Shown here: piece by piece, positions 4,432 through 46,600 of the stretch
How the letters are laid out: each line of letters starts with the position of its first letter
Position numbering within the stretch: the stretch's first letter is position 1
IMG/VR virus record: IMGVR_UViG_3300020055_000036
Coordinates: 1 to 46,660 of that record
Length of the DNA: 46,660 nt
Reading direction: 5' to 3' (one strand)
Source: a virus
Position numbers and translations under genes: made by a program
The notes under the pieces: generated by a model
The model's database searches: none
What the model saw: only the letters and a program-made list of their open reading frames with translations
What the model was told of the DNA's origin: nothing

Positions 4432-4673
4432 TTAACTTCTACTCCCCATTCTCCTTTAGGCTGTAAGTCTTTCCGATATAACCACTCAGCTGGACACGTT
4501 AACGCGTCAAAACCTGGATTATAGTAAGAGCTATAACACTCTACTATTTTGGTTTTATCAGACTCGTATTCAGATTTAATTTTAGAAAACCAATCTTTAG
4601 TTTCCCAGTTATCTGGTATTGGGTGACAAGTATAATTAAACCCGTCACCGAATAAATTAATGGACGTCTGCAT
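4416..4673 (-). CDS. hypothetical protein (85 aa)
   Basis: The frame is open further upstream, but the ATG at 4673 has GGAGAAAGTT immediately before it and sits inside the last codons of the DNA polymerase gene (18 nt overlap), so it is preferred over the start at 4703. The product begins MQTSINLFGDGFNYTCH and has several Trp and Tyr residues (WETKDWFSKIKSEYE, PAEWLYRKDLQ) and three Cys. It looks globular with no membrane segment. I do not recognise the family. Its place between polymerase and exonuclease suggests an accessory role in replication, which is inference only. Confidence 0.7.
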   Translation of the reverse strand: MQTSINLFGDGFNYTCHPIPDNWETKDWFSKIKSEYESDKTKIVECYSSYYNPGFDALTCPAEWLYRKDLQPKGEWGVEVKWQSV

Positions 4674-6516
4674 AACTTTCTCCAATCTTATAGTCACCAC
4701 CATCCATACACATTACACCGAAATCTTTTGGTGCTTCACGAAAAGACTCTTGTAGTATTTCACCAACACGTTTAGCGTCTTTATCACTAGCAATATAAGC
4801 TATTTCGTCATGATAAAAGATAGCTGGATACGCGTCAAGTTTCTCATCATTAATCTTATTCATAGCATAGCTTGTAGCCGCTTTACAAGTAACGCCTTCT
4901 GCAGCTTGCAATAAATAATTAAGTACCTGATAATCACTACGCGCATACACCTTACGGCCGTCAAGACCTGGTATACATCCATATCGGTTATATATTTCTT
5001 TGAGTTTTTCGACCAACGAGCCGAATCCTGGTAAGTTAGCCATGAATGCAGCTCTGGCTTCTCGTCCTTTCTTTGCATCGCTTACTCCACACAGCGTTTG
5101 ACCAAGCTTTGCATCACCCGCACCAAAGAGAATAGCGTAAAGAAAAGACTTAGCCACGCTCCGATTGCAACCCAAAACACTAGCATTCCGTGAATGTTGA
5201 TCACCGTTAATGACAAGGTCGGTGTAATCGTTATTGCCGACGTAGTGACAAAGACCACGGAGCTGGTTGCCAGCACTGTCAGCGCCAACAACTCTATAAC
5301 CTGTCTCAGCAATAAAGAGTTCTCTAAGCATGCGACCATACGGAGCATCAACTGCCGGCAAGTTAACGATAACTTCATGACGACAGCGGAAACTTGGAGT
5401 ACCAACAGTCCACATCCTACCATGAAGTCTAGGATTATTTGATTCGTCATATTTAAGTCTCTCTAACCATGAGTTTATAGTAGCCGCACGGTTCTTAATA
5501 GTATAATATCTATCAACCAGTTTACCGATACGACCAAGCTTAGCCAATGATGTTGAAGTTAGCTTAGGTCCTGTGCGTACCCACTGACCAGTCGGTCCTT
5601 TCTTTACGTTCCAATCATCAGGTACCCAGCCTATTGTATACAACCACTCTTTTACCAGGTCCATGTTTGATAAAGTAACAGGTTCTATAGTAAACCGTTG
5701 AAACTCATCACCAGGCAGCACGGGTGGGCTGTCAGACACGGCCTCTTCAGCTAAGACGGTACGACCCAAGTATTCCGATAAGATACGAGTAGTTACGGCA
5801 GTATAGTAACCCGCTTTGGTATACTTTGCCGTCTTTGGTGTCTTATCAATAAATACTTTAGTAGTTCCAAGTTTTGGTTCTACAATTGACTCAATTTTAT
5901 TCATGTGTTTATGCATAACATTTAGATTATGCTTTGCACGATTCAAATCAAACAGCCAACCTTTCTTACGAACTTCAGACTCAAATATTCCAATATCATG
6001 TTCAACACGTAAGCCTTTCTTAATTAAGCTATTGTTTTCATTAGCCTTTTTAAGTTCTGCTAGTAAAACATGATACACTCTTGTATTTAACTGCACGTCT
6101 TGCGTACAGTATTCTAACATTTTTGGTGAGTAAATCTGCCAGCCTTGCTCATTGAATTCAGAGTTATCTTGTTTCTCGTAACCAAGATATTCACCCCAAC
6201 CACCAAGACCTTGCTTGTGAGGACGATCAAAGTCCAATACTTGCGACATAATCCATGTGTCGATCACAGTAGTTTTCGAAGACGGTTTCCAACCATAAAG
6301 CTTTTCCAACGCCATTAAATCAAAGCCAATAATATTATGACCAATTAAGGCATCAGCGGTTTCCATAAATTTCAAACCGGACTCTATAGACGGTAAACCA
6401 GGCTGATCAGCGTATCTATAAATCTTTTCTGTCACAGCATCTTGACATACAAGTACGTGACAAACGGTCATCTCCTCCAAGAGACCATTAGTTTCTATAT
6501 CAAATACTAATTGCAT
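4657..6516 (-). CDS. family A DNA polymerase, T7 gp5-like
   Basis: 619 residues (T7 gp5 is 704). The 3'-5' exonuclease domain is present: VFDIETNGL (ExoI), IGHNIIGFDLMAL (ExoII) and YCTQDVQLN (ExoIII). Polymerase motif A is GADSAGNQLR with D413 as metal ligand; motif B is RSVAKSFLYAILFGAG with Tyr at the position of T7 Tyr526 / E. coli Phe762; motif C is FYHDEIAY. Motif A carries Gln (about residue 418) where T7 and E. coli have the Glu that helps exclude ribonucleotides. AAAGGATTGCT precedes the ATG. It replicates the phage genome with the primase-helicase and SSB; whether it uses thioredoxin as processivity factor cannot be read here. Tyr at the 762 position has been linked to virulent phage lifestyles. 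Confidence 0.96.
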   Translation of the reverse strand: MQLVFDIETNGLLEEMTVCHVLVCQDAVTEKIYRYADQPGLPSIESGLKFMETADALIGHNIIGFDLMALEKLYGWKPSSKTTVIDTWIMSQVLDFDRPHKQGLGGWGEYLGYEKQDNSEFNEQGWQIYSPKMLEYCTQDVQLNTRVYHVLLAELKKANENNSLIKKGLRVEHDIGIFESEVRKKGWLFDLNRAKHNLNVMHKHMNKIESIVEPKLGTTKVFIDKTPKTAKYTKAGYYTAVTTRILSEYLGRTVLAEEAVSDSPPVLPGDEFQRFTIEPVTLSNMDLVKEWLYTIGWVPDDWNVKKGPTGQWVRTGPKLTSTSLAKLGRIGKLVDRYYTIKNRAATINSWLERLKYDESNNPRLHGRMWTVGTPSFRCRHEVIVNLPAVDAPYGRMLRELFIAETGYRVVGADSAGNQLRGLCHYVGNNDYTDLVINGDQHSRNASVLGCNRSVAKSFLYAILFGAGDAKLGQTLCGVSDAKKGREARAAFMANLPGFGSLVEKLKEIYNRYGCIPGLDGRKVYARSDYQVLNYLLQAAEGVTCKAATSYAMNKINDEKLDAYPAIFYHDEIAYIASDKDAKRVGEILQESFREAPKDFGVMCMDGGDYKIGESYADVH

Positions 6517-6569
6517 AGCAATCCTTTCTATCTTATAATTCTTCTAGTAGCGGCGCTCCTGCGACGCCT

Positions 6570-8604: not shown

Positions 8605-9529
8605 TTTCTTGAAGTTCCTTTCTCTTTTCATTAGCTATCTTTTGTAGCTCTTTTGCGCGTGCTTTTGTTGGTGCGCCAAGCTCTGCTCTAAGACGGTCTT
8701 CCATTTCTAACAAGACGGTTTTCTCATGAGGCCATAGCTTGCCAAGACGGATAGTCAACGCCGCTTTCTTAGTGCCCTTTTCCCAGCCATCTTTCCAACG
8801 TAATGTAGCGCAGTCAGACCACACTTCAGCAAATCTTTCCATGCCTTTGTTGTGATTATCTGTAGTGCGAGTTGTAGCACAGCCACCTGCTGCTTGTGTC
8901 TTATTACCTGCACTAGCAAACTTATTCATGTTAAGTACAGGATATCCGGCCTTTACCATTTGACATTGAATATGAAAATCTTCAGGCAAAAACTCGTCTT
9001 CTTGCCATTGTTCTCCAATCCAGTCATAGTTATGTGGGTTTATTACGCTAAAATCAAACCAAGTATTAGTGTACACACGAGAATTAACACCACCAGGAAA
9101 ATCGCTAATCCCAGCCGGAGAGATTCTCTGTCCAAGTCCTCCAACTCTGAAGCCGACGTCACACGCGGTTTGAATATCTTTAAACAAAACATTCCAATCT
9201 TCCTCTTCCATGGCGGTAAATTTCAAAAAAGGCCATGACCCGTCCATGCCGTCATCTTTAGCCTTACAAAATGTTAAGTCATCATCCATTTGCCATTGAA
9301 TAAACTCCATACCGAGCTCTTTGGCTGCCCACTCACGTCGTTTAGCGATCCCTCGAACCTCGTCAGGACATGCCTTTACATTACAGATAGATCCATACCG
9401 TTCCATATGAGCATCGTACTCTTCGGGATAAACCAGCAGAGTCGTAATATTTTGTATAGTCTTTGGCATTTGAGACAGAGTAACTTGATTATCTACTCTG
9501 CCTCTTGTAAAAATTACTGGTGTTATCAT
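8597..9529 (-). CDS. GT-A-type glycosyltransferase, TAGT-like (predicted DNA-base glycosylation)
   Basis: 310 residues from the ATG at 9529, which has a perfect AGGAGG eight bases upstream; the longer frame to 9598 lacks this. The N-terminus (MITPVIFTRGRVDNQVTL) followed by Arg-rich GIAKRREWAAKELG and the metal-binding MDDDLTFCK triad looks like the TET-associated glycosyltransferase (TAGT) group of GT-A enzymes. A further acidic motif EDEFLPEDFHIQCQM and a His/Asn-rich stretch (TRTTDNHNKGMERF) resemble that family's C-terminal half. TAGT proteins are proposed to add sugars to hydroxymethylated bases in phage DNA. With the predicted dCMP hydroxymethylase downstream, it would glycosylate 5hmC. 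The family call is from memory of motif order and needs a profile search. Confidence 0.72.
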   Translation of the reverse strand: MITPVIFTRGRVDNQVTLSQMPKTIQNITTLLVYPEEYDAHMERYGSICNVKACPDEVRGIAKRREWAAKELGMEFIQWQMDDDLTFCKAKDDGMDGSWPFLKFTAMEEEDWNVLFKDIQTACDVGFRVGGLGQRISPAGISDFPGGVNSRVYTNTWFDFSVINPHNYDWIGEQWQEDEFLPEDFHIQCQMVKAGYPVLNMNKFASAGNKTQAAGGCATTRTTDNHNKGMERFAEVWSDCATLRWKDGWEKGTKKAALTIRLGKLWPHEKTVLLEMEDRLRAELGAPTKARAKELQKIANEKRKELQENG

Positions 9530-10727: not shown

Positions 10728-10982
10728 TTATGGATACCTTGTCTCCTGCATCAATCTCTTTAGATACCATTCGCATTTCTCCAAGTCTTCTATGCCGCCT
10801 TTATAACGGAAACGCCACAGATATTTCAATGCGTTGCCATGAAGATAAAACTCGAAACCTTCATCTTGCTCAAGACAAGCAGCAATCGCATCAATACACT
10901 CAATACTACCTTGATTGTAATGAGCAGGACTATTTACCATATCTGGCTTATCTTCTTCCTCGTCTAATAGCTTATTAAACAT
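10728..10982 (-). CDS. DUF3310 family protein
   Basis: 84 residues from an ATG at 10982 preceded by GAGGAGGGTCTCG and overlapping the end of the upstream gene by 8 nt. The DUF3310 signature is clear: VNSPAHYNQGSIECIDAI near the start and GNALKYLWRFRYKGGIEDL at the end, followed by a helix EKCEWYLKRLM. DUF3310 proteins are widespread in tailed phages and are sometimes called nucleotide-kinase-like, but no activity is firmly established. The neighbourhood is nucleotide metabolism, consistent with such a role. Confidence 0.88.
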   Translation of the reverse strand: MFNKLLDEEEDKPDMVNSPAHYNQGSIECIDAIAACLEQDEGFEFYLHGNALKYLWRFRYKGGIEDLEKCEWYLKRLMQETRYP

Positions 10983-11394
10983 CGAGACCCTCCTCATTAA
11001 ACATCTCTCTTACTACTTCATCTGCTCGTTCCATGGAATGATCTACAAGCTCTTCCCGCATCTCTTCGGTCCAATCATAACTATGCTCTAACTGATCAAG
11101 CAAACTATCTCGTACTTCTTCTTGAACCTGCTCATAAGCTGCAGTCACAGCATCTCTAGCCTCACTTACAGCAGCATCAATACTATAACTAAAGTCGTTC
11201 CTTATACACTCTTCTACATTCAACATTGCAGACTCGATAACCATGTACTCATGATCTTGAATTGCTGAAGTCATACTATGTATACAGTCACGGTAAGCGT
11301 TAGCCGCTTCATGGTTATCCTCTTTGTTTGCTACTTCTATCCATCTCTCGATTTGACTAATAACAGGATTCATTACATTTCTTAGAACATTCAT
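10975..11394 (-). CDS. hypothetical acidic helical protein (139 aa)
   Basis: First gene downstream of the leftward promoter-like motif at 11474-11487. The ATG at 11394 is preceded by GAGAAAGGAATAGTAAC. The product is nearly all helix and strongly acidic (VNEP-poor, Glu/Asp-rich): IERWIEVANKEDNHEAANAY, then AVTAAYEQVQEEVRDSLLDQ and SMERADEVVREMFNEE. It has coiled-coil character without a membrane span. No family recognised. As the lead gene of the metabolic/replication operon it may be an early regulator or host-interaction protein. Confidence 0.68.
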   Translation of the reverse strand: MNVLRNVMNPVISQIERWIEVANKEDNHEAANAYRDCIHSMTSAIQDHEYMVIESAMLNVEECIRNDFSYSIDAAVSEARDAVTAAYEQVQEEVRDSLLDQLEHSYDWTEEMREELVDHSMERADEVVREMFNEEGLDV

Positions 11395-11473
11395 GTTACT
11401 ATTCCTTTCTCATGTTCTAGATACAGACTAGAGTATAACCCTAAGCCCAGGCCCAGCCTCTCGCTCCCTTCTT

Positions 11474-11487
11474 CTAATAGGGGACAC
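11474..11487 (-). promoter_or_regulatory. leftward phage promoter-like motif (L2)
   Basis: Reads GTGTCCCCTATTAG on the minus strand, followed by AAGAAGG. It is 80 nt upstream of the first gene of the metabolic/replication operon and in that gene's orientation. Almost identical motifs occur at 13921, 15718 and 33765 on the plus strand, each near a rightward gene start. The CCCTATW core followed by a purine-rich start resembles T7-family promoters (CACTATAGGGAGA). Confidence 0.6.
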
Positions 11488-11624
11488 GCCGTAAGCCGTT
11501 ATCTCGGGTGCATAGAGTACATGTAAATTGCCACTGGAATCACCCAATGGCCATGCCTATGGCCCACCCATCGGTTTCTTATAGCTTTTCACGTGCATGC
11601 AACGGTCGCCCTTCGGTGTTTATT

Positions 11625-11693: not shown

Positions 11694-11731
11694 TACATAC
11701 ATCTCCTAAGATTACTAATAACTACACGAGT

Positions 11732-11751
11732 GGTGGCAGGCATCTGACACC
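11732..11751. repeat. covarying hairpin, copy 2
   Basis: 20-nt hairpin: outer 4-bp stem GGTG/CACC, one mismatched pair, inner 3-bp stem CAG/CTG and loop ATGC (minus-strand reading). Related copies at 12966-12985 (inner stem CGG/CCG) and 13348-13365 (outer GCG/CGC, inner CAC/GTG) keep the loop, spacing and mismatch while changing paired bases on both sides. This is evidence for a selected structure. Confidence 0.55.
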
Positions 11752-11891
11752 CATACTGCAAGACGGTACTACAGACCTAAACAGGCCGCCGACAAGGTTT
11801 CCCTCATCGACGACCTATTCCCCTCCCACTGGACGTGGTCAGGTTCTCCTTTCAGTTACCACCGCTTTACGACCGAGGCCGACTCTGCATC

Positions 11892-11928
11892 GTTAGGCCT
11901 GGATAATTCCAGTGCGGATTTGCCTAAC
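11892..11928. repeat. 7-bp inverted repeat with inner hairpin
   Basis: GTTAGGC at 11892-11898 pairs with GCCTAAC at 11922-11928, enclosing a second short stem (CTGG/CCAG around ATAATT). This bifurcated fold lies in the gene-poor interval downstream of ssb and has no U-run, so it is not a simple terminator. Confidence 0.42.
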
Positions 11929-12039
11929 CATGAAACGGACGAGATGTAAGAACAGACAATGTACGTCGCCATACCAAAGCCTTCTATCCTACGCTGCACA
12001 GTTTCAGCTGTACACTGACCCTCGTAAGCCAGCTTCGAA

Positions 12040-12071
12040 GAAAAATAAAGGCGCAGTTTTAGGTCATGCGC
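12040..12071 (-). terminator. candidate terminator after SSB
   Basis: On the minus strand GCGCA pairs with TGCGC across an 11-nt loop, followed by CTTTATTTTTCTTC. It lies 12 nt past the ssb stop. The stem is only 5 bp, and an alternative GGTC/GACC pairing overlaps it, so strength is uncertain. Confidence 0.45.
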
Positions 12072-12083
12072 AGGACCAAGATT

Positions 12084-12578
12084 TTAGAACGGCATTTCAC
12101 CATTCTCTGCAGGCTTTTCAACTGGCACAGCTGTAAAACCTACGCTTGGTGTGTACTCTTCAAGCTTAGTTACTTGAACAGCAGTCAGAGAAGTCGCGAT
12201 ACCTTTACGACCAGGCGCTTCATACGCATACTGCCACAAATTAACGTTGACAGTCGAGCCATTACCGATGTTTTCACCGGACATAGGCTGAAGTTGCGCA
12301 TCGACGATTTTCACTGGTGTATTTGGTGTACCATCGGCTTTTAGACCTTTACGTTTCAGTTGCACAGAAAATGTACCAGCGTCTGGTGAATCTTCTTTTG
12401 CTTCTTTGACGTTAAGACCATACTCTCTCATTTCATCAGCTTTTGCAGGATCTTTTGTTTGAATCTGCATTTCCCACTGCTTCGATTTGAATGAATTCAC
12501 AGGCGCATCATCACCTGAGATTTTACACCACTTAGCAGTTACGTTTTCGATGATTATTGAACGAGGATATTCTGACAT
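12084..12578 (-). CDS. single-stranded DNA-binding protein, T7 gp2.5-like
   Basis: 164 residues from the ATG at 12578, preceded by AAAGGAAGGTCTAAA; the upstream in-frame ATG lacks such a site. The product is a predicted OB-fold: strands around SIIIENVTAKWCKI, KQWEMQIQT, GTFSVQLKRKG and GSTVNVNLWQYAY, ending with a short acidic, Phe-terminated tail (KPAENGEMPF). That tail is the hallmark of gp2.5-type SSBs, where it contacts polymerase and primase-helicase. Length and layout fit T7 gp2.5 (232 residues) in shortened form. It coats single strands at the fork. Its gene is separated from the replication operon by the hairpin-rich interval, suggesting separate, probably strong expression. Confidence 0.8.
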   Translation of the reverse strand: MSEYPRSIIIENVTAKWCKISGDDAPVNSFKSKQWEMQIQTKDPAKADEMREYGLNVKEAKEDSPDAGTFSVQLKRKGLKADGTPNTPVKIVDAQLQPMSGENIGNGSTVNVNLWQYAYEAPGRKGIATSLTAVQVTKLEEYTPSVGFTAVPVEKPAENGEMPF

Positions 12579-12757
12579 TTTTAGACCTTCCTTTAGACAA
12601 GTTTGAGACAAAGATACATTGCGCTCTCACCGAGCTTCCACGTTTTTTCATTCAGTCACCATGTGTCCTATTTCTAGGCTAGACGCTTTTCCAATATGCT
12701 AGTCGTAGTTTGCAACACAGAGGGTACAGACTATTGTGTCTGAGTTTCAGAGATAAA

Positions 12758-12774
12758 CTGTAGCGGTTCTACAG
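12758..12774. repeat. perfect 6-bp hairpin in SSB leader
   Basis: CTGTAG pairs with CTACAG around a 5-nt loop. It has no U-run on either side, so it is not a typical terminator. It lies about 180 nt upstream of the ssb start within a series of weaker hairpins. Confidence 0.45.
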
Positions 12775-12965
12775 CACGCAATGTAAGTGAGCAGTTTTAA
12801 GCCTTACTCAGGGCATCAATGCAGTTCTAGAGTCATGCATTAGGACTTGAACCAAAACTGGTTACCTCCTATGATCGCCAAAAGGCTAAGACTGGCTGCA
12901 CATAGGCATACACGACCAGAATTTAATGAAGCAGAGCAATCGTATGAATTGATTGTTGCACAGAA

Positions 12966-12985
12966 GGTGACGGGCATCCGGCACC
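12966..12985. repeat. covarying hairpin, copy 1
   Basis: On the minus strand: GGTG, mismatch C, CGG, loop ATGC, CCG, mismatch T, CACC. It starts at the base right after the TAG of the 24-codon membrane-peptide gene and is followed by TTCTGTGCA, similar to the TTCTAGTACA that follows copy 3. Same architecture as the copies at 11732 and 13348, with compensating changes in the inner stem. Confidence 0.58.
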
Positions 12986-13060
12986 CTACCTGCGTTCTTG
13001 CAATACGATTAGCCCTATGATAACAAAGGCCAAGCAGACCCAGAAACTAACTGGCATCAT
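12986..13060 (-). CDS. small membrane peptide (24 aa)
   Basis: The ATG overlaps the TGA of the upstream 44-residue gene (ATGATG junction). The peptide is one hydrophobic span (SFWVCLAFVIIGLIVL) with a basic QERR end. Coupled start and clean composition argue that it is translated despite its size. Last of three tightly overlapping mini-genes; a covarying hairpin follows its stop directly. Confidence 0.52.
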   Translation of the reverse strand: MMPVSFWVCLAFVIIGLIVLQERR

Positions 13061-13191
13061 TTTAGACTCTGTTTAATCATGGAAGCATAGGCATAGAAAG
13101 CTACGCCTACGCAAGAGGTTATAGCTGCTACAACAAACGCCAAGAAGACGTATGTAGCGATGACAAGTGCAGGTTCTAGATTAAGATCCAT
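13057..13191 (-). CDS. small membrane protein (44 aa)
   Basis: The ATG follows GGAGGTCAACT, a strong ribosome-binding site inside the end of the upstream gene (11 nt overlap). It has a short acidic N-terminus (MDLNLEPA), one long hydrophobic segment (IATYVFLAFVVAAITSCVGV) and a short KQSLK tail. The predicted location is the inner membrane. Function unknown; small early phage membrane proteins may inhibit or remodel host envelope functions. Confidence 0.62.
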   Translation of the reverse strand: MDLNLEPALVIATYVFLAFVVAAITSCVGVAFYAYASMIKQSLK

Positions 13192-13309
13192 AGTTGACCT
13201 CCACATATGTATCAACATCAATACCGTTGGCAATGATGTGAAAGATTTCGTCTACACCCAGGGCGATGCCAAAGGCTTCAAACACGTAGTCAAAGATTGA
13301 TTCATGCAT
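13181..13309 (-). CDS. hypothetical acidic protein (42 aa)
   Basis: The ATG follows AAAGGAATCCAATC. The product begins MHESIFDYVFEAFGIALG, then DEIFHIIANGIDVDTYVEV: acidic, hydrophobic and amphipathic-helical, without a clear long membrane span. First gene of the three-gene mini-cluster. No family recognised. Confidence 0.58.
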   Translation of the reverse strand: MHESIFDYVFEAFGIALGVDEIFHIIANGIDVDTYVEVNYGS

Positions 13310-13347
13310 GATTGGATTCCTTTCTTAGCATGATGTATGTACTAGAA

Positions 13348-13365
13348 GCGACACGCATGTGGCGC
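13348..13365. repeat. covarying hairpin, copy 3
   Basis: On the minus strand: GCG, mismatch C, CAC, loop ATGC, GTG, mismatch T, CGC. Both stems differ from copies 1 and 2 yet remain paired. It lies about 40 nt upstream of the 42-residue gene and downstream of the UUCG terminator, so it would be in the untranslated part of that transcript. Confidence 0.52.
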
Positions 13366-13421
13366 CCAAGCCGGAGCAAACGCATGACGGAGGTACCTGC
13401 CCTACTTCGCTCAACGGCTTT

Positions 13422-13462
13422 GGAAAAAATGTAAGGCAGCCTGACCGAAGCCAGACCGCCTT
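13422..13462 (-). terminator. strong rho-independent terminator with UUCG loop
   Basis: On the minus strand a 13-bp stem with three G-T pairs (from AAGGC at one end to GCCTT at the other) is capped by a C(TTCG)G tetraloop and followed by ACATTTTTT. It starts six nt past the stop of the first leftward gene. Geometry is textbook for intrinsic termination, leaving that gene as its own short transcript or attenuating what follows. Confidence 0.82.
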
Positions 13463-13467
13463 TACTG

Positions 13468-13620
13468 TTAGAATGGATGTGGATCATTGTCAAGATCAAA
13501 TAAGCAGAGTTGACCATCTACCTCGACAAGTGATTCATTGATAGTTTCATCTTCGTCATATCCACGAGCGCAAATATCCTTTTGTGGAATGACCTTGTTG
13601 TTTGATGGATTGTTTGACAT
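13468..13620 (-). CDS. hypothetical acidic protein (50 aa), first leftward gene
   Basis: The ATG at 13620 is preceded by AGGAGGTACAA, a near-perfect ribosome-binding site. The product begins MSNNPSNNKVIPQKDICARG and turns acidic (YDEDETINESLVEVDG, LFDLDNDPHPF). Two Cys, no membrane segment. It is the first gene left of the divergent control region and is followed at once by the UUCG terminator, so it is probably an abundant early transcript. Small acidic first genes in T7-like phages often encode host-takeover proteins; no specific homologue is recognised. Confidence 0.7.
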   Translation of the reverse strand: MSNNPSNNKVIPQKDICARGYDEDETINESLVEVDGQLCLFDLDNDPHPF

Positions 13621-13673: not shown

Positions 13674-13702
13674 TTGAAGATATTATATAGTTGTTGTATA
13701 TA
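13674..13702 (+). promoter_or_regulatory. candidate host sigma70-type promoter
   Basis: TTGAAG at 13674-13679, a 17-nt spacer, then TATATA at 13697-13702 (TATAAT begins two bases later). It points rightward. The surrounding sequence is very AT-rich, so chance matches are likely. Confidence 0.32.
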
Positions 13703-13783
13703 ATATGTACGAGAGAAAAAATGTATATTTTTTCCCTGCAGACAAACTAGATAAGATGTTGAAGAGACTAAAGCGTATATATA

Positions 13784-13956: not shown

Positions 13957-14082
13957 ATGATACGCAAAATAAACCCAGTGGCTAGAAGTATGTTATCTTT
14001 GAGGAAGCCACCACAAGTTGTTAAGCCTAAGAAAGGTAAAGGTAGTTACACTAGAAAGGGTAGGAGGACAGGGCGTGGATAA
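13957..14082 (+). CDS. small basic protein (41 aa), first rightward gene
   Basis: The ATG has GGTGGAGAT upstream and lies right after the R1 motif. The product is highly basic (MIRKINPVARSMLSLRKPP, then KPKKGKGSYTRKGRRTGRG) and likely binds nucleic acid. The last 8 nt overlap the terminase start, and the AGGAGG that serves terminase lies within this gene (14061-14070), indicating coupling. No family recognised. Confidence 0.62.
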   Translation: MIRKINPVARSMLSLRKPPQVVKPKKGKGSYTRKGRRTGRG

Positions 14083-17852: not shown

Positions 17853-20011
17853 TGGCCGACCCGATGGGATACAAAGAGCCTATTACAGACGAACAATTAA
17901 TTAATCTTATTGAAAGCGGAGTTCAAAACTCTACAGGAGATTGGTTAAACTCTTCTGACTTGGCTCGTGAAAGACTGAAAGCTACTTACGAATATGCAGG
18001 AGTAGCTGATGCACATTTAACTCCACAAGGAGTCTCGTCAATTGTAGATACCTCAACTACTGAAGTTATTGAGGCTTACACAGCTATATTATCAGATCTG
18101 TTTTTGAATAATCAAAAGCTTGCGCGCTTCGTGCCATACGACGATAGTCCTGGCGCGTTTAAAGCTGCGAAAGATGCTTCTGCTATAACTAACTATTGCT
18201 TATTTAAGAAGAATAATGGTTGGGAACTTATGCAACAGTGGATGAAGTCTGCGTTGCTTTGGAAAAATGCAGTTTGTAGATGGGACTATGTTGAAGATTA
18301 CGATTATGCATTTGAAGAATACGAAGAAATAAGTCAAGCTAAATTAGACGAATTACTTTCTGACGACAACATTGAAATAATCGGTGAACTTCAGTTTGAA
18401 AACGTTACACGTATTGACGAACAAACAGGTGAAGACGCTGTTGAGCTAATGTACGTTGATGTGCGAGTTAGAAAAACAATAAATAATTCTCGCGTAAAAG
18501 TAGAGCTTATTCCACCAGAAAATTTTAGAATTTCTAGAGATTGTCAAAGTATTGATGAGTCGCAGTTTGTAGGTATTCAAACAGACATGACTCGTTCTGA
18601 AATACGAAAGTATTGGCCAGAAGTAGCAGAGTCTATTGAAAGCTGGGACGAGCTAGGACACAGTGATAGCTGGTTAGGAGCATCTAAATACGCTCAAGAT
18701 GTTGCAGCTAGAAAACATGTTGTCGGACAAGAATATTGGCAGGGATCTACGCAGCACGAAATTATGCCGTTAGAGGCAAACAGAGAAGTTACTGTTACTG
18801 AGTGCTGGTTGAGAGTTGATCGTGATGGCGACGGTATAGCTGAGCTTAAGAGGTTTATTGTTGTTGGAAGTCATATACTATATGAAGAAGATACAGACGT
18901 TATTCCGCTGGCCTCTATCGTTCCATTCGATATTCCACACGAATTTTATGGCCTATCAATGGCAGACTTTACTAGAAGCTCTACTCTTGCTTCTACTGCT
19001 ATTTTACGCGGCTTTGTAGAAAATACATATTTAACTAATTATTCGCCTAAGTTGGCTGATCCAAACGTAGTAGATTTTTCTGCTCTTCAAAATATGAAGC
19101 CAAAGCAGATTATTCCTACTAATGGTAACCCAACTGGCGCAGTTCAAACCTTATCACCAGAAGCTATTTCTACCGGGACTGTTCCGCTGTTGACTCACTT
19201 GCAGTTAATAAAAGAACAAGCTACTGGTATGTCAAAAGCTGCTCAAGGTTTGAACGATACATTATACGTTTCAGGTAACTCTGAACAAAAACTTTCCGCT
19301 GTCCAATCCGCAGCCCAGAAGCGCATTCAACATATTGCGCGGCGATTTGCAGAGACAGGCTTTAAGCGGTTAATTGCTGGCATCTACGAAACCATGCATA
19401 AGAATATGAAAGGAAAATATACTTACAATCTTGATGGCGTATATGGTTCAGTAGATATGGACGCACTTCCTTCTAAGATGGACGTACAGATTTTCTTGGA
19501 CATTGGCGAAAATTCTAATATGTCAATGATTAACAAGTTATCTAAGATTGGTGCAGAAGTTCTGCCAGCTCTCAATCAGCAAGGCGCTGGCATGGTTATT
19601 AAAAGAGAGGCACCAGCAGTTCTTGCTACGAAGCTTATTGAAGCTATGAACTTAGACAGTAATGACTTTTTAGAAGATTATACTACTGACGAGTTTAAGC
19701 AAAAAGCTATGCAAGCTGTAGAACAGCAAAGTAAGATGGCTCAAATGACAAAAGAAATAGAACAACAAAAGGCTCAGGCTGATGTTCAACTTTCTCAAGC
19801 TAATGTAGCCTATACTACTGCTCAAGCTAGAAATACTATGGAAGATAACGCAAGAGCGCTTGCAGTATCTATTGATAAGCATTTCCAAGAGTGGGCGGAT
19901 CTTACTATTAAAGCAACAAAAGAAGGCGCTCAAATGCCGCCACATCCGGGCTTTGATGAAATACTTCAAATGGCTCAAGGCATTATGATGGCCGCTGAAA
20001 AACAAGGATGA
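17852..20011 (+). CDS. portal protein (P22/SIO1-type head-tail connector)
   Basis: 719 residues, very close to P22 gp1 (725). The N-terminal region (DEQLINLIESGVQNSTGDW, then a helical MQQWMKSALLWKNAVCRWDY) and the central wing/stem region (PFDIPHEFYGLSMADFTRS, LRGFVENTYLTNYSPKLAD) match P22-like portals. The C-terminus is a long Gln-rich coiled coil (QQSKMAQMTKEIEQQKAQAD), as in the P22 barrel region. A dodecamer of this protein forms the vertex through which terminase packages DNA. GGGAGGTAAATACTG precedes the ATG. No truncation seen. Confidence 0.88.
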   Translation: MADPMGYKEPITDEQLINLIESGVQNSTGDWLNSSDLARERLKATYEYAGVADAHLTPQGVSSIVDTSTTEVIEAYTAILSDLFLNNQKLARFVPYDDSPGAFKAAKDASAITNYCLFKKNNGWELMQQWMKSALLWKNAVCRWDYVEDYDYAFEEYEEISQAKLDELLSDDNIEIIGELQFENVTRIDEQTGEDAVELMYVDVRVRKTINNSRVKVELIPPENFRISRDCQSIDESQFVGIQTDMTRSEIRKYWPEVAESIESWDELGHSDSWLGASKYAQDVAARKHVVGQEYWQGSTQHEIMPLEANREVTVTECWLRVDRDGDGIAELKRFIVVGSHILYEEDTDVIPLASIVPFDIPHEFYGLSMADFTRSSTLASTAILRGFVENTYLTNYSPKLADPNVVDFSALQNMKPKQIIPTNGNPTGAVQTLSPEAISTGTVPLLTHLQLIKEQATGMSKAAQGLNDTLYVSGNSEQKLSAVQSAAQKRIQHIARRFAETGFKRLIAGIYETMHKNMKGKYTYNLDGVYGSVDMDALPSKMDVQIFLDIGENSNMSMINKLSKIGAEVLPALNQQGAGMVIKREAPAVLATKLIEAMNLDSNDFLEDYTTDEFKQKAMQAVEQQSKMAQMTKEIEQQKAQADVQLSQANVAYTTAQARNTMEDNARALAVSIDKHFQEWADLTIKATKEGAQMPPHPGFDEILQMAQGIMMAAEKQG

Positions 20012-25824: not shown

Positions 25825-28800
25825 ATGGCTAAAAAACTTTTACAATATTATACGTTTGACGCAGCCACTCAAACGATTACTATTGAAGGTATCTATGGCT
25901 TAGACCGATTTTTGATGATTACAAACGTAACGGATAATATTATTCTTTATGTGTTTAGTAATCCAGACTTCGGATTTTCTAGCTATTCAATTGATACCGA
26001 GGCAGAAACAACGACAGTTGTAGTAGACTACGACACCACGTCTATGTCAAATAGCGATGAACTACAGATCTTTATTGAACAAGAAGGTCAAGAGTTTATG
26101 CCAGCAGAACCGTACATTGATGCAGTATCTAAGTTTCGGGTAACAAATCCTCAAAACTTGATTGATACTGACTTTGAATACGGTCTTCAGTCTACAAAGT
26201 GGGAAACACTTGAGCTTGTTAAAAACATTCCTACGTTTTATAGTAGAAACGGTGATGAATCGTTAGATCTTGTTAGTATTACTCGCACTAGCGGAAGCGA
26301 AATTATTAGTGTTGAAACAGATCAAGCTCACGGCTTGGCAGTAGGTAATCCGATTATTGTTCAAGGTACTGATAGTATTAGTGCTAATGGTGCTTTTGTT
26401 ATAACTAAAGTAGTTGACACTACTAATTTCCAGTATAAAAGTAAGTCTTCACAAACATCAACAGGAAGCATTTTAGATACTTATACTCAAGTATTTGTTG
26501 GTAGTGTTTATCAAGGAACAGAGTTTCAACTAAGCGATATAAACAGTATTACTACAGATAGCGCATCACCTGCTTCTACATTAACTGTAAGTACTGAAAC
26601 TCCTACAGGGTTTTCAACAGGGACTAGCTTTTTCTTAAGCAATAGCGTTGGTAGTAAACAAATAACCTTTGACGCTGCTGCAGTTGATCCTAGTAATACT
26701 GGTTGGAAAGTAGAAACTCATAACTCACCAGAAGAAACAGATGATCAAGATACTTCCGGTTGGTCAAGAATTCACTGGCAACCTTATAAGTGGACTCCTA
26801 AAAAGGCTAAGTTTTTTGTAGGTGGTACAGATCCAGATGCTACTATTACTGTACAAAATACTTATGAAATAACGTTTACTGATAGCGGTCATGGATTTTC
26901 TGATGGCGATTGTGTTATGCACTATAACGCTTCAGGTAATACAAGTCCTGGTGGCCTTTCAGAAAGGTGGTATTATATAACTACAGTAGACGCTAATACG
27001 TTTAAACTATCTACTTCTTATGCAAATTATCAAGCAGGAACGTTTGTAGCTATTACAAGTGCAGGAGCAGCTAATTTATACGCACGTAGTTGTTTTGCAG
27101 AAGCTATTGAGCCTATTTCACTAAGTTCAAATACGTTTACATTTAGACAAAATGTTCCGTATACAGATACTCCATATATTGCAGCCTATAGCACTGTTTC
27201 AAACTTTCAAGCAAGCGCTGGCTATACTGCTGCACAGTTGTTAAGCAACTATGATGATTTTGGAAACGGTCATGTTTGTTATGCTTTGTCTAGTGGATCA
27301 ACTACTACGCAGTTTTCAAACACAGATGGTGGTTCAGTAAGAACCTTTACTAGTACTACTTTTGCTGGTGTCCTAGTACCTATGAAACCATGGGCAGGAC
27401 AACATGAAGGGTTTAGTGTTTATTTGCCAGATGCAGGTTTTGAAGATGGTGATTATGTAGTTATAGAGCATGAATCTACTTATCCTGTTGGTTTAGCCGT
27501 AAACAAAATGTACGAATTATCAGAAATTGGTAGTGATTATCCTAATCGCTTTCATATTAAAAACTCTGGGAATACCGCAAATAATGATATAGTAGAGTTT
27601 ACATCTTGGGGAAATTTGAGTACAGGTAACGCTTTTCAATTTAAAGAGTCTGATTGGCGAACAATGGACGAAGCAACGACTGAAGCAGGGTTTAATTACT
27701 CTCCTTTTGATGCCCATTGGATAACTCCTGATGATGCTATTTATTTTAAGCCAGATGGTATTGACGCAACAATTGCTAATAACCAGCTTACGTTTGCTAC
27801 TCCTCATGGAATAACTAATGGCGATACTTATGCGTATTTCATGGGATACGGTAACGCAGTTATAAATACGCTAGCAGACAGTCGTTGGTATTACATAAAA
27901 GTTATTGATTCTACTACGATTGAATTCTATACAAACTCTGACTTAACTACTGGTAAACTAGCAATTACTGCGTTTGGAACTAATGGTGGAAGAACACGAT
28001 CAGCGCTTATTCGCTGTTACACTACAGCAGGAGCGTTAGGTGCTAGTGATACTAAAGAAGAGGTTTACTTTGTTGAGCCTTTAGACGGCGCAACTACTGG
28101 TGGCTCACAGGCTTATTTTCCTGTCTATACAACGTTTGCAGGATTTAGTGTTGGAACTTCAAGTAGCTTTTTGATAAATGATTATAGCAGTTATTTAATC
28201 TATCCAAAGAAAGTTACTAACAATGGCCAAACAGTAGTCTTTTCAAGCACAGTAAATGGAAGTGTAAAAAATGTTACTAGCACTACAGCCACAGGCGCAG
28301 TAATCAAGGCATCTTTAAATCCTGCTAGATGGACGATGCTTAGTAGAGACGCAAGCAAGTGGACTGTAGGAGACTATATTTATCATGTTGCTTCAGGAAC
28401 TGCTGGTGGTTTAACTAGCGGCGCGTATTATATACTCGATAAGATAGTTGGAAATAGAATTGGATTTAGAACCCTTGCTTCATCAACTTCATTAGTCCTC
28501 ACGACTCCGAGCTCATACACTACTTCTGCTTATTATAGCTATTGGCTTCCTCGTAGTTCTTATAATTCTGAAGGTGATTATATAAATGCTACAAATCATG
28601 GATTAAATGACGGTGATCTTGTTGCTTATGATGCAGGGTCAGGGAATCTGCCGTTAAAAGGATTAACAGATGGTACTACGTATTATGTGTTTAATTCCGA
28701 AAACGACAAGTTTCAATTAGCTACTACGATAGATGGTTTTTCTGAAGATGCAGTAGAGTTCAACCAAAATAACACATTTATCGGTAGCAACGTTAATATT

Positions 28801-32925: not shown

Positions 32926-33320
32926 TACAAGCGCTTATTGGACCTGCAACCGCTTTACTAGATAAGTTTATAGAAGATAAAGATCAAAAGGCAAAATTAG
33001 CTCATGACTTAGCTACTATGGCTGAGCGTCATGCGCAAGAGCTGGCTAAAGGACAACTTGAAATAAACAAAGCAGAAGCACAAAGTAGAAATATGTTTGT
33101 AGCTGGTTGGCGACCGTTTGTTGGTTGGTCTTGCGGCTTAGCCTTGTTTTGGCATTTTCTTGGACTACCTTGTACAATGTTTGCAATGTCCGTTTTAGAC
33201 GTTGCTATACCGGCCGATCTTCCGGAGTTTGATATGGATACCTTAATGACTGTGCTATTAGGTATGTTAGGACTCGGTGGCATGAGAAGTTTTGAGAAGT
33301 TTAAAGGAATTACTAAGTAA
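32922..33320 (+). CDS. holin, 3TM-type
   Basis: 132 residues from an ATG overlapping the previous stop, with AAAGGAGATGCAGT upstream; the longer frame is out of context. A soluble N-terminal helical part (ALLDKFIEDKDQKAKLAHDL) leads to NMFVAGWRPFVGWSCGLAL, the hallmark of Holin_3TM proteins (SWRP..GW), then membrane segments ALFWHFLGLPCTMFAMSVL and DTLMTVLLGMLGLGGMRS. It would make the inner-membrane lesions that release the endolysin encoded next. Start and stop overlap neighbours, indicating coupled translation. Confidence 0.78.
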   Translation: MIQALIGPATALLDKFIEDKDQKAKLAHDLATMAERHAQELAKGQLEINKAEAQSRNMFVAGWRPFVGWSCGLALFWHFLGLPCTMFAMSVLDVAIPADLPEFDMDTLMTVLLGMLGLGGMRSFEKFKGITK

Positions 33321-42143: not shown

Positions 42144-42758
42144 ATGCTTTTAATTAAAATGATGGCGGGAGGAGATCCGTTTGGAAGTTCCATTGCCCGC
42201 AAAGGAGGAGGCGGTGGTGGTGGTACTACTACTACCACTGTTTCCGGTATTGATAAGGAATTTAAGCCTTATCTAAAACGAGTTCTTTCAGACGTTACTG
42301 ATCGTTACGAAGCTGAAGTAGCTGGAGGGCCAGACGCAATTGTAGCTAAGCTTGACCAAGCGCAAATTGACGCTATTAACGCACAAGAAGGCCTGGGCCG
42401 TGACGCACTAGCGGGTCGTGGTATCTATGACGTACGTGGCGCTCAAGAAAGAGACTTACAAAATCTTGCTGGCAGCCAAGCTATGCAACAATATATGAGT
42501 GGAGGCTTAGGCGGAGCAAGAGCCCAGCGTGGAATGCAATCAGCGTTGGCCGATCGTTCATCTCAAAACTTGGAAGAACAACGTAGAATACAGCAGTATG
42601 GTATGTCTCAACTAGGAGAAGCAGGTAGTACTCGACAGGCTTATGAACAACAGCGTCTTGATGCGCCTCATACGTCGGCTAGTCGCTACTTTGGATACCT
42701 TGCTGGTGCTCCACAATCTACAACGCAAACTCAAACTGGCGGAGGAGGTGGTAAATGA
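42144..42758 (+). CDS. internal virion / ejection protein (204 aa)
   Basis: CAGGAGAATTAA precedes the ATG. A Gly-rich N-terminal linker (IARKGGGGGGGTTTTT) is followed by a helical Gln/Ala-rich body (AQIDAINAQEGLGRDALAGR, LAGSQAMQQYMSGGLGGARA, RMQSALADRS-like) and a Gly-rich end. This matches the style of ejection proteins that form a channel across the cell envelope in short-tailed phages. Lies upstream of two more such proteins. Identification is by composition and order. Confidence 0.6.
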   Translation: MLLIKMMAGGDPFGSSIARKGGGGGGGTTTTTVSGIDKEFKPYLKRVLSDVTDRYEAEVAGGPDAIVAKLDQAQIDAINAQEGLGRDALAGRGIYDVRGAQERDLQNLAGSQAMQQYMSGGLGGARAQRGMQSALADRSSQNLEEQRRIQQYGMSQLGEAGSTRQAYEQQRLDAPHTSASRYFGYLAGAPQSTTQTQTGGGGGK

Positions 42759-43649: not shown

Positions 43650-46600
43650 ATGAAACTAAAAGCATATACGCAAAAGGATCGTTTTGGTAACTCCGTTTCT
43701 TTAGAATTTTTTGAAGATAACTCTATTCCGTCTATGCAAGCTATTCCTATGTACGATCATCCTGGAGATCCAAAAGGTACCGACACAGTGCCTGCTTGGC
43801 TTACTCCTGGAGAATACGTTATGAACGCAGAGTCTGTGCGCATGTTTGAGCCACAAATAGAGGCTATGAATAACGCCGGCAAAGAGGTTCAACGTATGCA
43901 AGGTGGAAGTATTCCAGAGTATAAAGCTGATGGTGGTCTTTTGTCTGATATTGGTAACAGTATTGGAGAGTTATACGATAAAGCTACTATGCCACAATCT
44001 CCTGCGCCTGGAATAACGCTTCGTAAAATGCCAGATGGCCGTTGGGGTCAATGGGCTGGTAACACTTTTAGAGGGTATTACGAAGAACCTAAAAAGACAA
44101 GTTCACGTAGAGAAAATACTTGGGATTTTTCTTTGTTTCAAAACGAAGGTGGTCCTATAGATTATAAAAACATTCTTTCTCAGTTTATAATGCAAGATGA
44201 TATAGAAGGATTTAAACCAGGCCCTTATAAAGATCCTACGGGAATATGGACTCAAGGATACGGAACTACCGGAGGAATAACACAAGACAGTGAGCCAATG
44301 AACCAAGAACAGGCTCAACAAAGGCTTATGAAAGATATTGAGGAAGTAGATAATGCATATAACAACCTTGTTAAGGTCGACCTTAATCCCTACCAAAAAT
44401 CGGCTGTACAATCTCTTATGTACAATGTCGGATCTGGTAGATTCGGAGAAAGTGACGCGCTTAAGAAACTCAACGAAGGAGATTTTGATGGCTATCTTAA
44501 AGAAGCTGGCGAGTTCCGTCTTGCTGGCGGTGAGCAATTGCCTGGACTGGTTAATCGCCGCAATAAAGAGGCTGAACTTTTTCGTACAGCGTACAGCTCA
44601 GAACCTGCACAACAAGTAGCAGAGCCTGGAATTCTTGCTAAACTGGGTATTGTTACCCCAGCTATGGCAGGAACTATGGACGCTCCGCCTCCTAAGCCGG
44701 ATGATAACGAAAGTTTCTTCTCAAAGCTATTTAGTGGTGGTACTGACGCAAACTCTATGGAAATACCTAGCGAGGACGGCTCTGATATACCTCCTCCTGC
44801 CCCTCAGGCTGCTGAGAACGCAGCAAAAACGGCAGACAGTAGTAACTCAGGTACTACAGGTAATCAAGCACCTGGCGAGGTTCCTCCCTTTGGACTCGGA
44901 GTGCCAGACCAAATAGGTCCGCGTAGCGAGGATCAAGAAATTAGAGACGCTACTATGCTTGGCAAAGATATCCCTAAAGAGGAAGAGCTAAAGGTAGATC
45001 CTGGATTAGCTAAAGCTGCGGCTGAAGCTGAAGCACAGCAACTAGCCGATAAAAGGCAAGAAGCAAAAGACCTTTGGAAAAAGACACAAGCAGAAATGAA
45101 AATGGTTCCTAACTTAGGAGGTTCTGGAATCGTTATTCAAGACATTGATGATGTCGTAGCATCTAAAGAAAAGAACGCTGAAATTGCTACTAATAATCTT
45201 ATTAACGCAGCTCAAACAGGAGATCCAGATCTCATTACTGCTGCTGCTAATAAAGTAGATGAAGCCGCTGTAGGTACTGGCGCTGCTAGAATTACGCAAT
45301 CTGGTATGACAGCTCAAGCTGATCAGTCTCGCGCTGATTCCGCTGCTGCTGCAGCTAAAAAGGCTAATGATGAAGTAACAAATCTTAGAACGCAGGCTGA
45401 GGCGCAAGCTCAGGCAGGAAACATGACTGCTGCAAACTCGTTAAACGCTGCTGCCGACGAAAAAGAAAAGAATAGCCAAGAACTACAGACAGCCGCTGAA
45501 GACGCACAAACAAAGGCTGATGCGTCTAACGCTAAGTATGACGCTGAACGAGAAGCAGGAGCAGCTAAGACAGGTGGTCAATTACCAGCTGGAACAAGTC
45601 AAGATGCCGTTAATAAAGAAGCAGCAAAGAAAAGCACTATAGACAAGATTGCAGCCAAAAGTAAAGGTCAAACGGGACCTGGTAAAGATCAACCTGGCGA
45701 AAACTCTGACGCTAAAAGCGTTCAACAAACAGGCGAAAGGCAACCACCAGCAAACAGAGATAAGGCTGAAGGCTGGCTTTCTGGATTGTTTGGGGATTTG
45801 TTTGATAAGAAAGAAATTGCCCGCATGGCTGTTATGTACTTAGGTAGTAGAGCTTTAGGTTATTCTCACGGCGGATCTTTAGAGTTTGCTGCTAAGAACT
45901 ACGTTACTCGTGTAGATAATGCTGTTGCAAAACGCCAAAAGTTTGTAGAGCAAAACGTTGATAAGTTTACTACAGAATCTTTAGAACTATATCGAAAGTC
46001 TGGTAAGTTGTCTGATCTTGAAAGAGTAGGCGCTGCAAAAGAGCGTACTGGAGAGTACAAAGAGTTCTATGGCAGAGGCAAAAATGGTAAGACCATTACT
46101 GTTAAAGCAGAAAAGGTTAAGGTAGGCAAAAATACCTATTGGGTAGATCCTGCTGGTAATCGCATTGATGGTAGCCGTTATAACGTAAACCCACAGCAGG
46201 TTCAAGGAACTAAAGAGTATAACGAATATGTAGATAAAACTACTGGCCGCTATACTGATCAGCTAAAAGAGCTTCAAACTAAGTTTGGTAAAATGGGAGA
46301 AGGCAAGGACGGACGTACTCTATACAGAACTGACGTGTCTCCTGTTACAGAAGGCAGAAAGATTGCTGAATGGGCTGTTAAGCACGGAAAAGATCCATCT
46401 GAAATGGGTGGACTTGTAGAACTTGCTATGAAGGATGCTCAAAACGATCAACGTCAAGATGGCAAGCGCGTATCTACTATTGTGCCGTACTTAAACAGTC
46501 TTGTTATTCGTGAAAAGACTGGAAATGCTGATATGTTTATGATAGAAGATCCTAACGATGACGAGAAAAAGGTTCCAGTTGACGCATTAAAGTTCCAAGA

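Follow-up and report, generated by a model that had tools for sequence, protein, structure and literature searches.

What is the role of a small family of hairpins in the leftward early region of a 46,660-nucleotide stretch of viral DNA (IMG/VR record IMGVR_UViG_3300020055_000036, positions 1 to 46,660; the whole stretch is referred to as the window)? An earlier note, based on the letters of this DNA, had described three minus-strand hairpins that share an ATGC loop and differ by compensatory base changes in their stems, and had interpreted them as selected RNA or cruciform structure. Promoters in the form of extruded DNA hairpins have been characterised for phage N4 and inferred for its family, and to our knowledge a hairpin-promoter system is known in detail only from these phages. 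This paper describes the hairpin family of the window and of several dozen related viral contigs, found by searches with the neighbouring single-stranded DNA-binding protein (SSB) and DNA polymerase. The data revealed an element of fixed geometry with conserved pairing and a mostly intergenic placement on the early strand, the loops of which switch jointly between closely related phages. These hairpins are, with good probability, N4-type early promoters that serve a compact second RNA polymerase, and the phages concerned belong to a lineage close to roseophage CRP-7.

Hairpin copies in the window

The three hairpins described in the earlier note were present and paired as stated there, with all inner and outer stem pairs of the Watson-Crick type and a mismatch that was pyrimidine-pyrimidine each time (Table 1). 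Their exact pattern was encountered three times on the early strand of the window and not at all on the late strand, whereas 300 dinucleotide shuffles averaged 0.06 and never exceeded 1. The similarity of the 3' flanks was genuine as well, and its spacing was constant, the stem being followed by 4 nt and a GTRCA-like sequence. Reading all hairpins in a single register (8-bp stem, 4-nt loop, 4-nt spacer, GTRCA-like flank) revealed two further copies in the window (copies 1 and 5), so that the family proved larger than the three members initially described. Window loops are not uniform (ATGC, ATAC, and AGGA); the ATGC loop and the pyrimidine mismatch are shared by the three original hairpins but are not essential to the element, since in relatives the loop sequence differs and the stem is often paired throughout. 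A scan of the window with a pan-lineage flank, which was derived from these same sequences, recovered four of the five copies (missing the one at 11732) and one extra match near 42148, with a mean of 0.39 and a maximum of 4 in shuffles, none of 200 of which reached 5.

Table 1. Positions of the hairpin copies and of associated features (window coordinates unless a relative is named).
Feature	Position	Strand	Sequence	Context or basis
Copy 1 with flank	13696-13734	minus	hairpin 13715-13734, GAAAAAAT-ATAC-ATTTTTTC; flank TCTCGTACATA / TCTCGTACATATTATATAC	fixed-geometry scan
Copy 2 with flank	13329-13366	minus	hairpin 13347-13366 (8-bp register), GGCGCCAC-atgc-GTGTCGCT; flank TCTAGTACATACATCAT	noted earlier as 13348-13365, GCG-C-CAC-ATGC-GTG-T-CGC
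Copy 3 with flank	12948-12985	minus	hairpin 12966-12985, GGTGCCGG-atgc-CCGTCACC; flank TTCTGTGCAACAATC	upstream of SSB gene; noted earlier, GGTG-C-CGG-ATGC-CCG-T-CACC
Copy 4 with flank	11714-11751	minus	hairpin 11732-11751, GGTGTCAG-atgc-CTGCCACC; flank ACTCGTGTAGTTATTAG	noted earlier, GGTG-T-CAG-ATGC-CTG-C-CACC
Copy 5 with flank	6530-6568	minus	hairpin 6549-6568, GGCGTCGC-AGGA-GCGCCGCT; flank ACTAGAAGAATTATAAG
gp2.5-like SSB gene	12084-12575	minus		downstream of copy 3; phrog_112, E 5.8e-13
Family A DNA polymerase gene	4657-6516	minus		downstream of copy 5; phrog_17, E 1.7e-88
Terminator-like UUCG hairpin with T-run	13433-13462 (G000 33199-33228)	minus	AAGGCGGTCTGGC-ttcg-GTCAGGCTGCCTT-acattttttcc	between the 50-aa ORF and copy 2
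Predicted T7-like RNA polymerase promoter	11468-11489 (motif at 11470)	minus	GTGTCCCCTATTAGAAG	motif recurrence
Probable T7-like RNA polymerase promoter motif	13921, 15718, 33765, 46335	plus	GTGTCYCCTATTAGAGA	recurs in close relatives
GAAA-loop hairpin near primase	G002 28699-28730; G003 18867-18892; G004 12036-12067; G005 45599-45630		GTTGGCAGTT-GAAA-AGACTGCCGAC type	oriented genomes

Copy 1, which combines an AT stem with the same flank as the other copies, is located 95 nt before a 50-aa ORF (13468-13620), and in relatives, too, an all-AT-stem copy lies nearest the divergent region. Copy 2 is located 38 nt upstream of a 42-aa ORF (13181-13309); its stem and loop are identical in relative L005 (SSB identity 71%), and a compensated counterpart precedes the orthologous ORF in L008. 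A hairpin upstream of the SSB gene, corresponding to copy 3, is found in most relatives whose upstream region is readable, and copy 4 lies 338 nt upstream of ORF 10975-11394. Finally, copy 5 directly follows a stop codon, the DNA polymerase start being 33 nt further on, and its orthologues precede the DNA polymerase gene in G001-G005 and G011.

A strong GAAA-loop hairpin is present on the minus strand at 11784-11815, beside an untranslated stretch (11845-11888) that is 85% identical over 47 nt in L005. In four relatives, the region upstream of the primase gene contains a second conserved hairpin, the loop of which is GAAA.

The element across related phages

Relatives carry three to eight copies of the element on the early strand, usually immediately ahead of a gene, and its geometry is constant, with a stem of 7-8 pairs of free sequence, ranging in composition from all-AT up to nearly all-GC, a loop of 4-5 nt that starts with A, and, at a set distance, an AT-rich flank. 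Nearly all strong copies are situated on the early strand in gaps between genes, often just past a stop codon, with the next start 25-50 nt further on, and some precede the first early gene. Pairing was found in 365 of the 376 stem cells of 47 distinct copies, as compared to a mean of 210 and a maximum of 237 in 1,000 shuffles, a figure that overstates the conservation because the copies were partly chosen by pairing; independent signals come from the orthologous positions, from loop conservation, and from the flank. Position 7 of the arm is a pyrimidine in 45 of 46 copies and position 8 in all 46 (T in 37, C in 9), while flank position +2 is C or T in 44 of the 46 and flank position +7 is A in 43 and G in 3. 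The first loop base is A in every listed copy, and the loop type varies by lineage.

The covariation that the earlier note had taken as a sign of selected structure was substantiated by many more copies in the relatives, which carry compensatory stem changes; a lack of covarying copies or stems broken by mutation, the outcomes that would have spoken against it, were looked for in the relatives and not encountered. In L005 and L008 (SSB identity 71% and 67%, respectively) the element occurs at matching places with compensated stems, and orthologous copy pairs show compensated closing pairs. The element is likewise located upstream of the SSB and DNA polymerase genes in more distant relatives, each lineage having its own loop over differing stems. 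For example, ATAAA is repeated seven times in G003 and ACAAG four times in G002, and AGAA and ATTC are the repeated loops of G001 and G005, respectively. Such same-loop hairpins within a genome exceeded the shuffles in five genomes, the top same-loop count being reached in 5, 1, 0, 0, and 5 of 200 shuffles for G000, G001, G002, G003, and G005, respectively. The hairpin scan did not reveal the family in CRP-7, G007, G009, or G010, and one clade of relatives (G007 and others) is without the element.

Three tandem hairpins with AT stems and ATTC loops, 72 and 84 nt apart, are found in L037 (935-1110), in a strikingly G-poor leader ahead of the first early gene. Pseudoknots between loop and flank were considered and rejected, as inspection by eye gave no consistent pairing.

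Protein A and concerted loop switching

The window record (46.7 kb) does not reach the RNA polymerase gene, which would be expected after the primase gene, nor the gene of a further protein, designated A; for the window, A was read from another contig, the DNA polymerase of which is 100% identical to that of the window. A (1,172-1,599 aa) is encoded next to a T7-like RNA polymerase, which is a single chain of 787-806 aa, and beside virion/ejection genes. Neither HMM scans (PF00940, PHROGs) nor a first motif regex flagged A as a polymerase, and a search of PDB sequences with the A profile (hmmsearch) returned nothing. The motifs of single-subunit RNA polymerases appeared only in the alignment of the A family, where DGxTxGP (VExDGxTHGP), KKPPMTLxYG (FLKKPPMTLAYGQ), and IQxIDGAWMN (IQGIDGAWMN) were found. 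A tblastn search with A of G002 against 50,697 phage records gave 14 weak matches, all to Salmonella, Escherichia, or Shigella phages of 68-73 kb, annotated as virion RNA polymerase (8), RNA polymerase (1), or hypothetical or unnamed (5). With A of the window-identical contig there were 12 matches (best E 3e-5), all to Vibrio and Klebsiella phages of 70-78 kb, including five records of virion RNA polymerase (as in the RefSeq versions) and one of RNA polymerase, the others having generic GenBank names. Moreover, hhalign of A against four N4-like virion RNA polymerases gave 92.9% (E 3.8e-7), compared to 1.5% for protein B and 1.4% for the T7-like polymerase as controls with the same profile. An earlier structure model of A from 6 sequences was too poor (pLDDT 49), whereas the core predicted from 13 sequences (pLDDT 69) could be superimposed on T7 RNA polymerase (Z 21.4, rmsd 4.0, 453 residues aligned) and on promoter complexes of N4 mini-vRNAP (Z 20.5, rmsd 5.9, 530 aligned). 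A is a single-subunit RNA polymerase, the nearest sequence relatives of which are the N4-like virion RNA polymerases.

Two pairs of near-identical phages connect this protein to the hairpins, as in both pairs the loops change together at sites that are kilobases apart, while the stems stay paired. G005 and G011, with RNA polymerases 98.6% and DNA polymerases 99.5% identical, have ATTC and ATAAA, respectively, at three orthologous sites (SSB, a 155-aa gene, and DNA polymerase), and the closing pairs are altered on both sides at two of these three sites. The same loop difference separates G002 (ACAAG/ATAAA) from G004 (ATTC/ATAC), with RNA polymerases 98.7% and DNA polymerases 95.8% identical; at the DNA polymerase site, for example, GGCGCGGG-ATAAA-CCCGCGCT is found in G002 versus AGCGCGGT-ATAC-ACCGCGCT in G004. 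Both pairs diverge in the segment left of SSB and in the virion genes adjoining the RNA polymerase gene, above all in that of A, which is the outlier of both pairs with an identity of only 46% (G005/G011) and 45% (G002/G004).

The simplest cause of the switching is a trans-acting reader of the loop. The T7-like RNA polymerase was rejected for this role, as it can not easily be the reader when it remains approximately 99% identical while the loops switch. Protein A is the probable reader and the probable cognate polymerase of these hairpins. Nevertheless, exchange of the gene segment left of SSB accompanies the loop switches, and a product of that segment could act as the reader in place of A; no domain was found in its small early proteins as candidate readers.

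In the proposed mechanism, each inverted repeat would fold back as a DNA hairpin with a stem in which the bases need only pair, the loop would carry the specificity, and transcription would begin in the AT-rich segment at a fixed distance from the hairpin. A would read the hairpins and is probably carried in the virion and injected with the DNA, like the virion RNA polymerase of N4. In addition, we lean slightly towards a broader reading, in which hairpin promoters with a compact second polymerase also occur beyond Schitoviridae and the loop acts as a specificity code, switched genome-wide in concert with the polymerase, resulting in mutually exclusive polymerase-hairpin pairs (loop classes ATNC, AGNN, and AYAAR).

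Proposed promoter role versus other possible functions

Hairpins in early mRNA, the loop of which is read by a phage protein at a translational operator, antitermination, or stability site, would explain that the copies are intergenic and confined to the early strand, and GC-rich copies would be stable as RNA; copies with all-AT stems, however, would be weak in that form (-1.3 to -2.7 kcal/mol). The stems contain 38 G.T pairs versus 9 A.C mismatches, as expected for RNA, but most of this excess is due to a single fixed T at the stem base and to the outer pairs, pairs 1-7 alone having 5 G.T and 1 A.C, and the asymmetry was dropped as proof of RNA. Moreover, Rfam holds no matching family: no match above gathering score covered the hairpins in the window and eight relatives, where only manA (RF01745; L019 10267-10471) and two tRNAs were detected, in relatives. 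There is no apparent candidate for an RNA-binding protein, a homologue of hairpin-promoter polymerases being present instead, and action of the hairpins at the RNA level is considered unlikely. Of the two forms left open by the earlier note, RNA or cruciform, the structure itself stands and we infer that its DNA form acts; the fixed spacing, the all-AT stems, the position ahead of early genes, and the co-varying second RNA polymerase that is homologous to N4 virion RNA polymerase favour a DNA-hairpin promoter.

Intrinsic terminators, or hairpins that protect mRNA 3' ends between genes, are very improbable. Many copies are located immediately past stop codons and a few have a T-run (G003 8680-8710 and some G005 copies), but the T-run is absent from most copies, including all five in the window, and terminators need neither a conserved loop nor a position-locked flank; moreover, a separate terminator-like hairpin with a T-run lies nearby (Table 1), and the copies ahead of the first early gene do not fit a 3'-end function. 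Spread by copying, as with mobile or duplicated palindromic repeats (REP-like), can be dismissed almost completely, for although the element is multi-copy and some G005 copies are nearly identical, it has a single orientation before genes, its stems vary while loop and flank stay, orthologous copies before the SSB and DNA polymerase genes persist over distant relatives, and loops switch in concert at orthologous sites.

Hairpin promoters read by A are thus favoured on basis of the N4-like architecture, the early-region location, the encoded homologue of a hairpin-reading enzyme, and the recovery of the TCC-loop hairpins of N4 at 564 and 4553 by a scan of the same type. In N4, the promoters are short hairpins in which variable stem bases need only pair, and recognition is by the loop and fixed spacing (PMC4496689). 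The early promoters P1-P3 of N4 (Schitoviridae; PMC4496689, PMC12633501) resemble the present elements in their paired but exchangeable stem bases, conserved loop, fixed downstream distance, and location before early genes, as illustrated by the N4 hairpin at 559, which is 27 nt before gp2. In both systems a second single-subunit RNA polymerase, homologous in sequence and predicted fold, is encoded beside virion/ejection genes. N4 has three promoters with 3-nt loops and a polymerase of 3,500 aa, whereas here there are up to eight elements, a far shorter polymerase, stems of 7-8 pairs, and lineage-specific loops that switch together; the loops of 4-5 nt differ from the 3-nt loop that defines N4-type hairpins, the central base of which is a purine on the template strand. 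Likewise, the virion RNA polymerase of approximately 3,500 aa and the heterodimeric middle RNA polymerase that characterise Schitoviridae are not found here, the other polymerase being one chain. Promoters of the N4 type also require supercoiling and SSB, are active as the template-strand hairpin, and give transcription starts at a set distance.

By capsid and portal (54% identical to those of the window) the lineage is nearest to the roseophage CRP-7 group (PMC6918029), which also has a T7-like RNA polymerase after the primase. CRP-7 gp33 lies at the position of A with 15-20% identity, and the counterparts of A in CRP-7 and G009 (14-20% identity) are assigned by position and not by homology. 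The description of the CRP-7 isolate mentions one RNA polymerase (ORF30) and names no hairpin promoters (PMC6918029). For Poorviridae phage vB_PunP_Y3, a virion RNA polymerase is reported outside Schitoviridae, and hairpin promoters are unmentioned in its description (PMC11654794). In a 2025 preprint, the large virion polymerase is described as unique to the family of N4 (PMC12633501). Within the limited open literature covered, what is new relative to known N4-type promoters is the lineage, the shorter polymerase, the larger number of sites, the longer loops, and their joint switching. If true, the occurrence of a shorter homologue, additional promoters, and switchable loops in a marine lineage would imply that the mechanism is wider and evolves by changes in loop specificity, and the near-identical phage pairs would represent a natural experiment on promoter change by a single-subunit RNA polymerase.

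Besides the hairpins, the motif GTCYCCTATTAGAGA recurs in close relatives with one early-strand copy and up to four late-strand copies, and is likely the promoter of the T7-like RNA polymerase, which would use it separately from A. Just past a predicted late promoter of the window and ahead of the terminase gene, a small and very basic ORF (MIRKINPVARSM...) is found at 13957-14082 on the plus strand, and a similar basic INPVAR peptide is encoded in relatives, including in the early region of G005.
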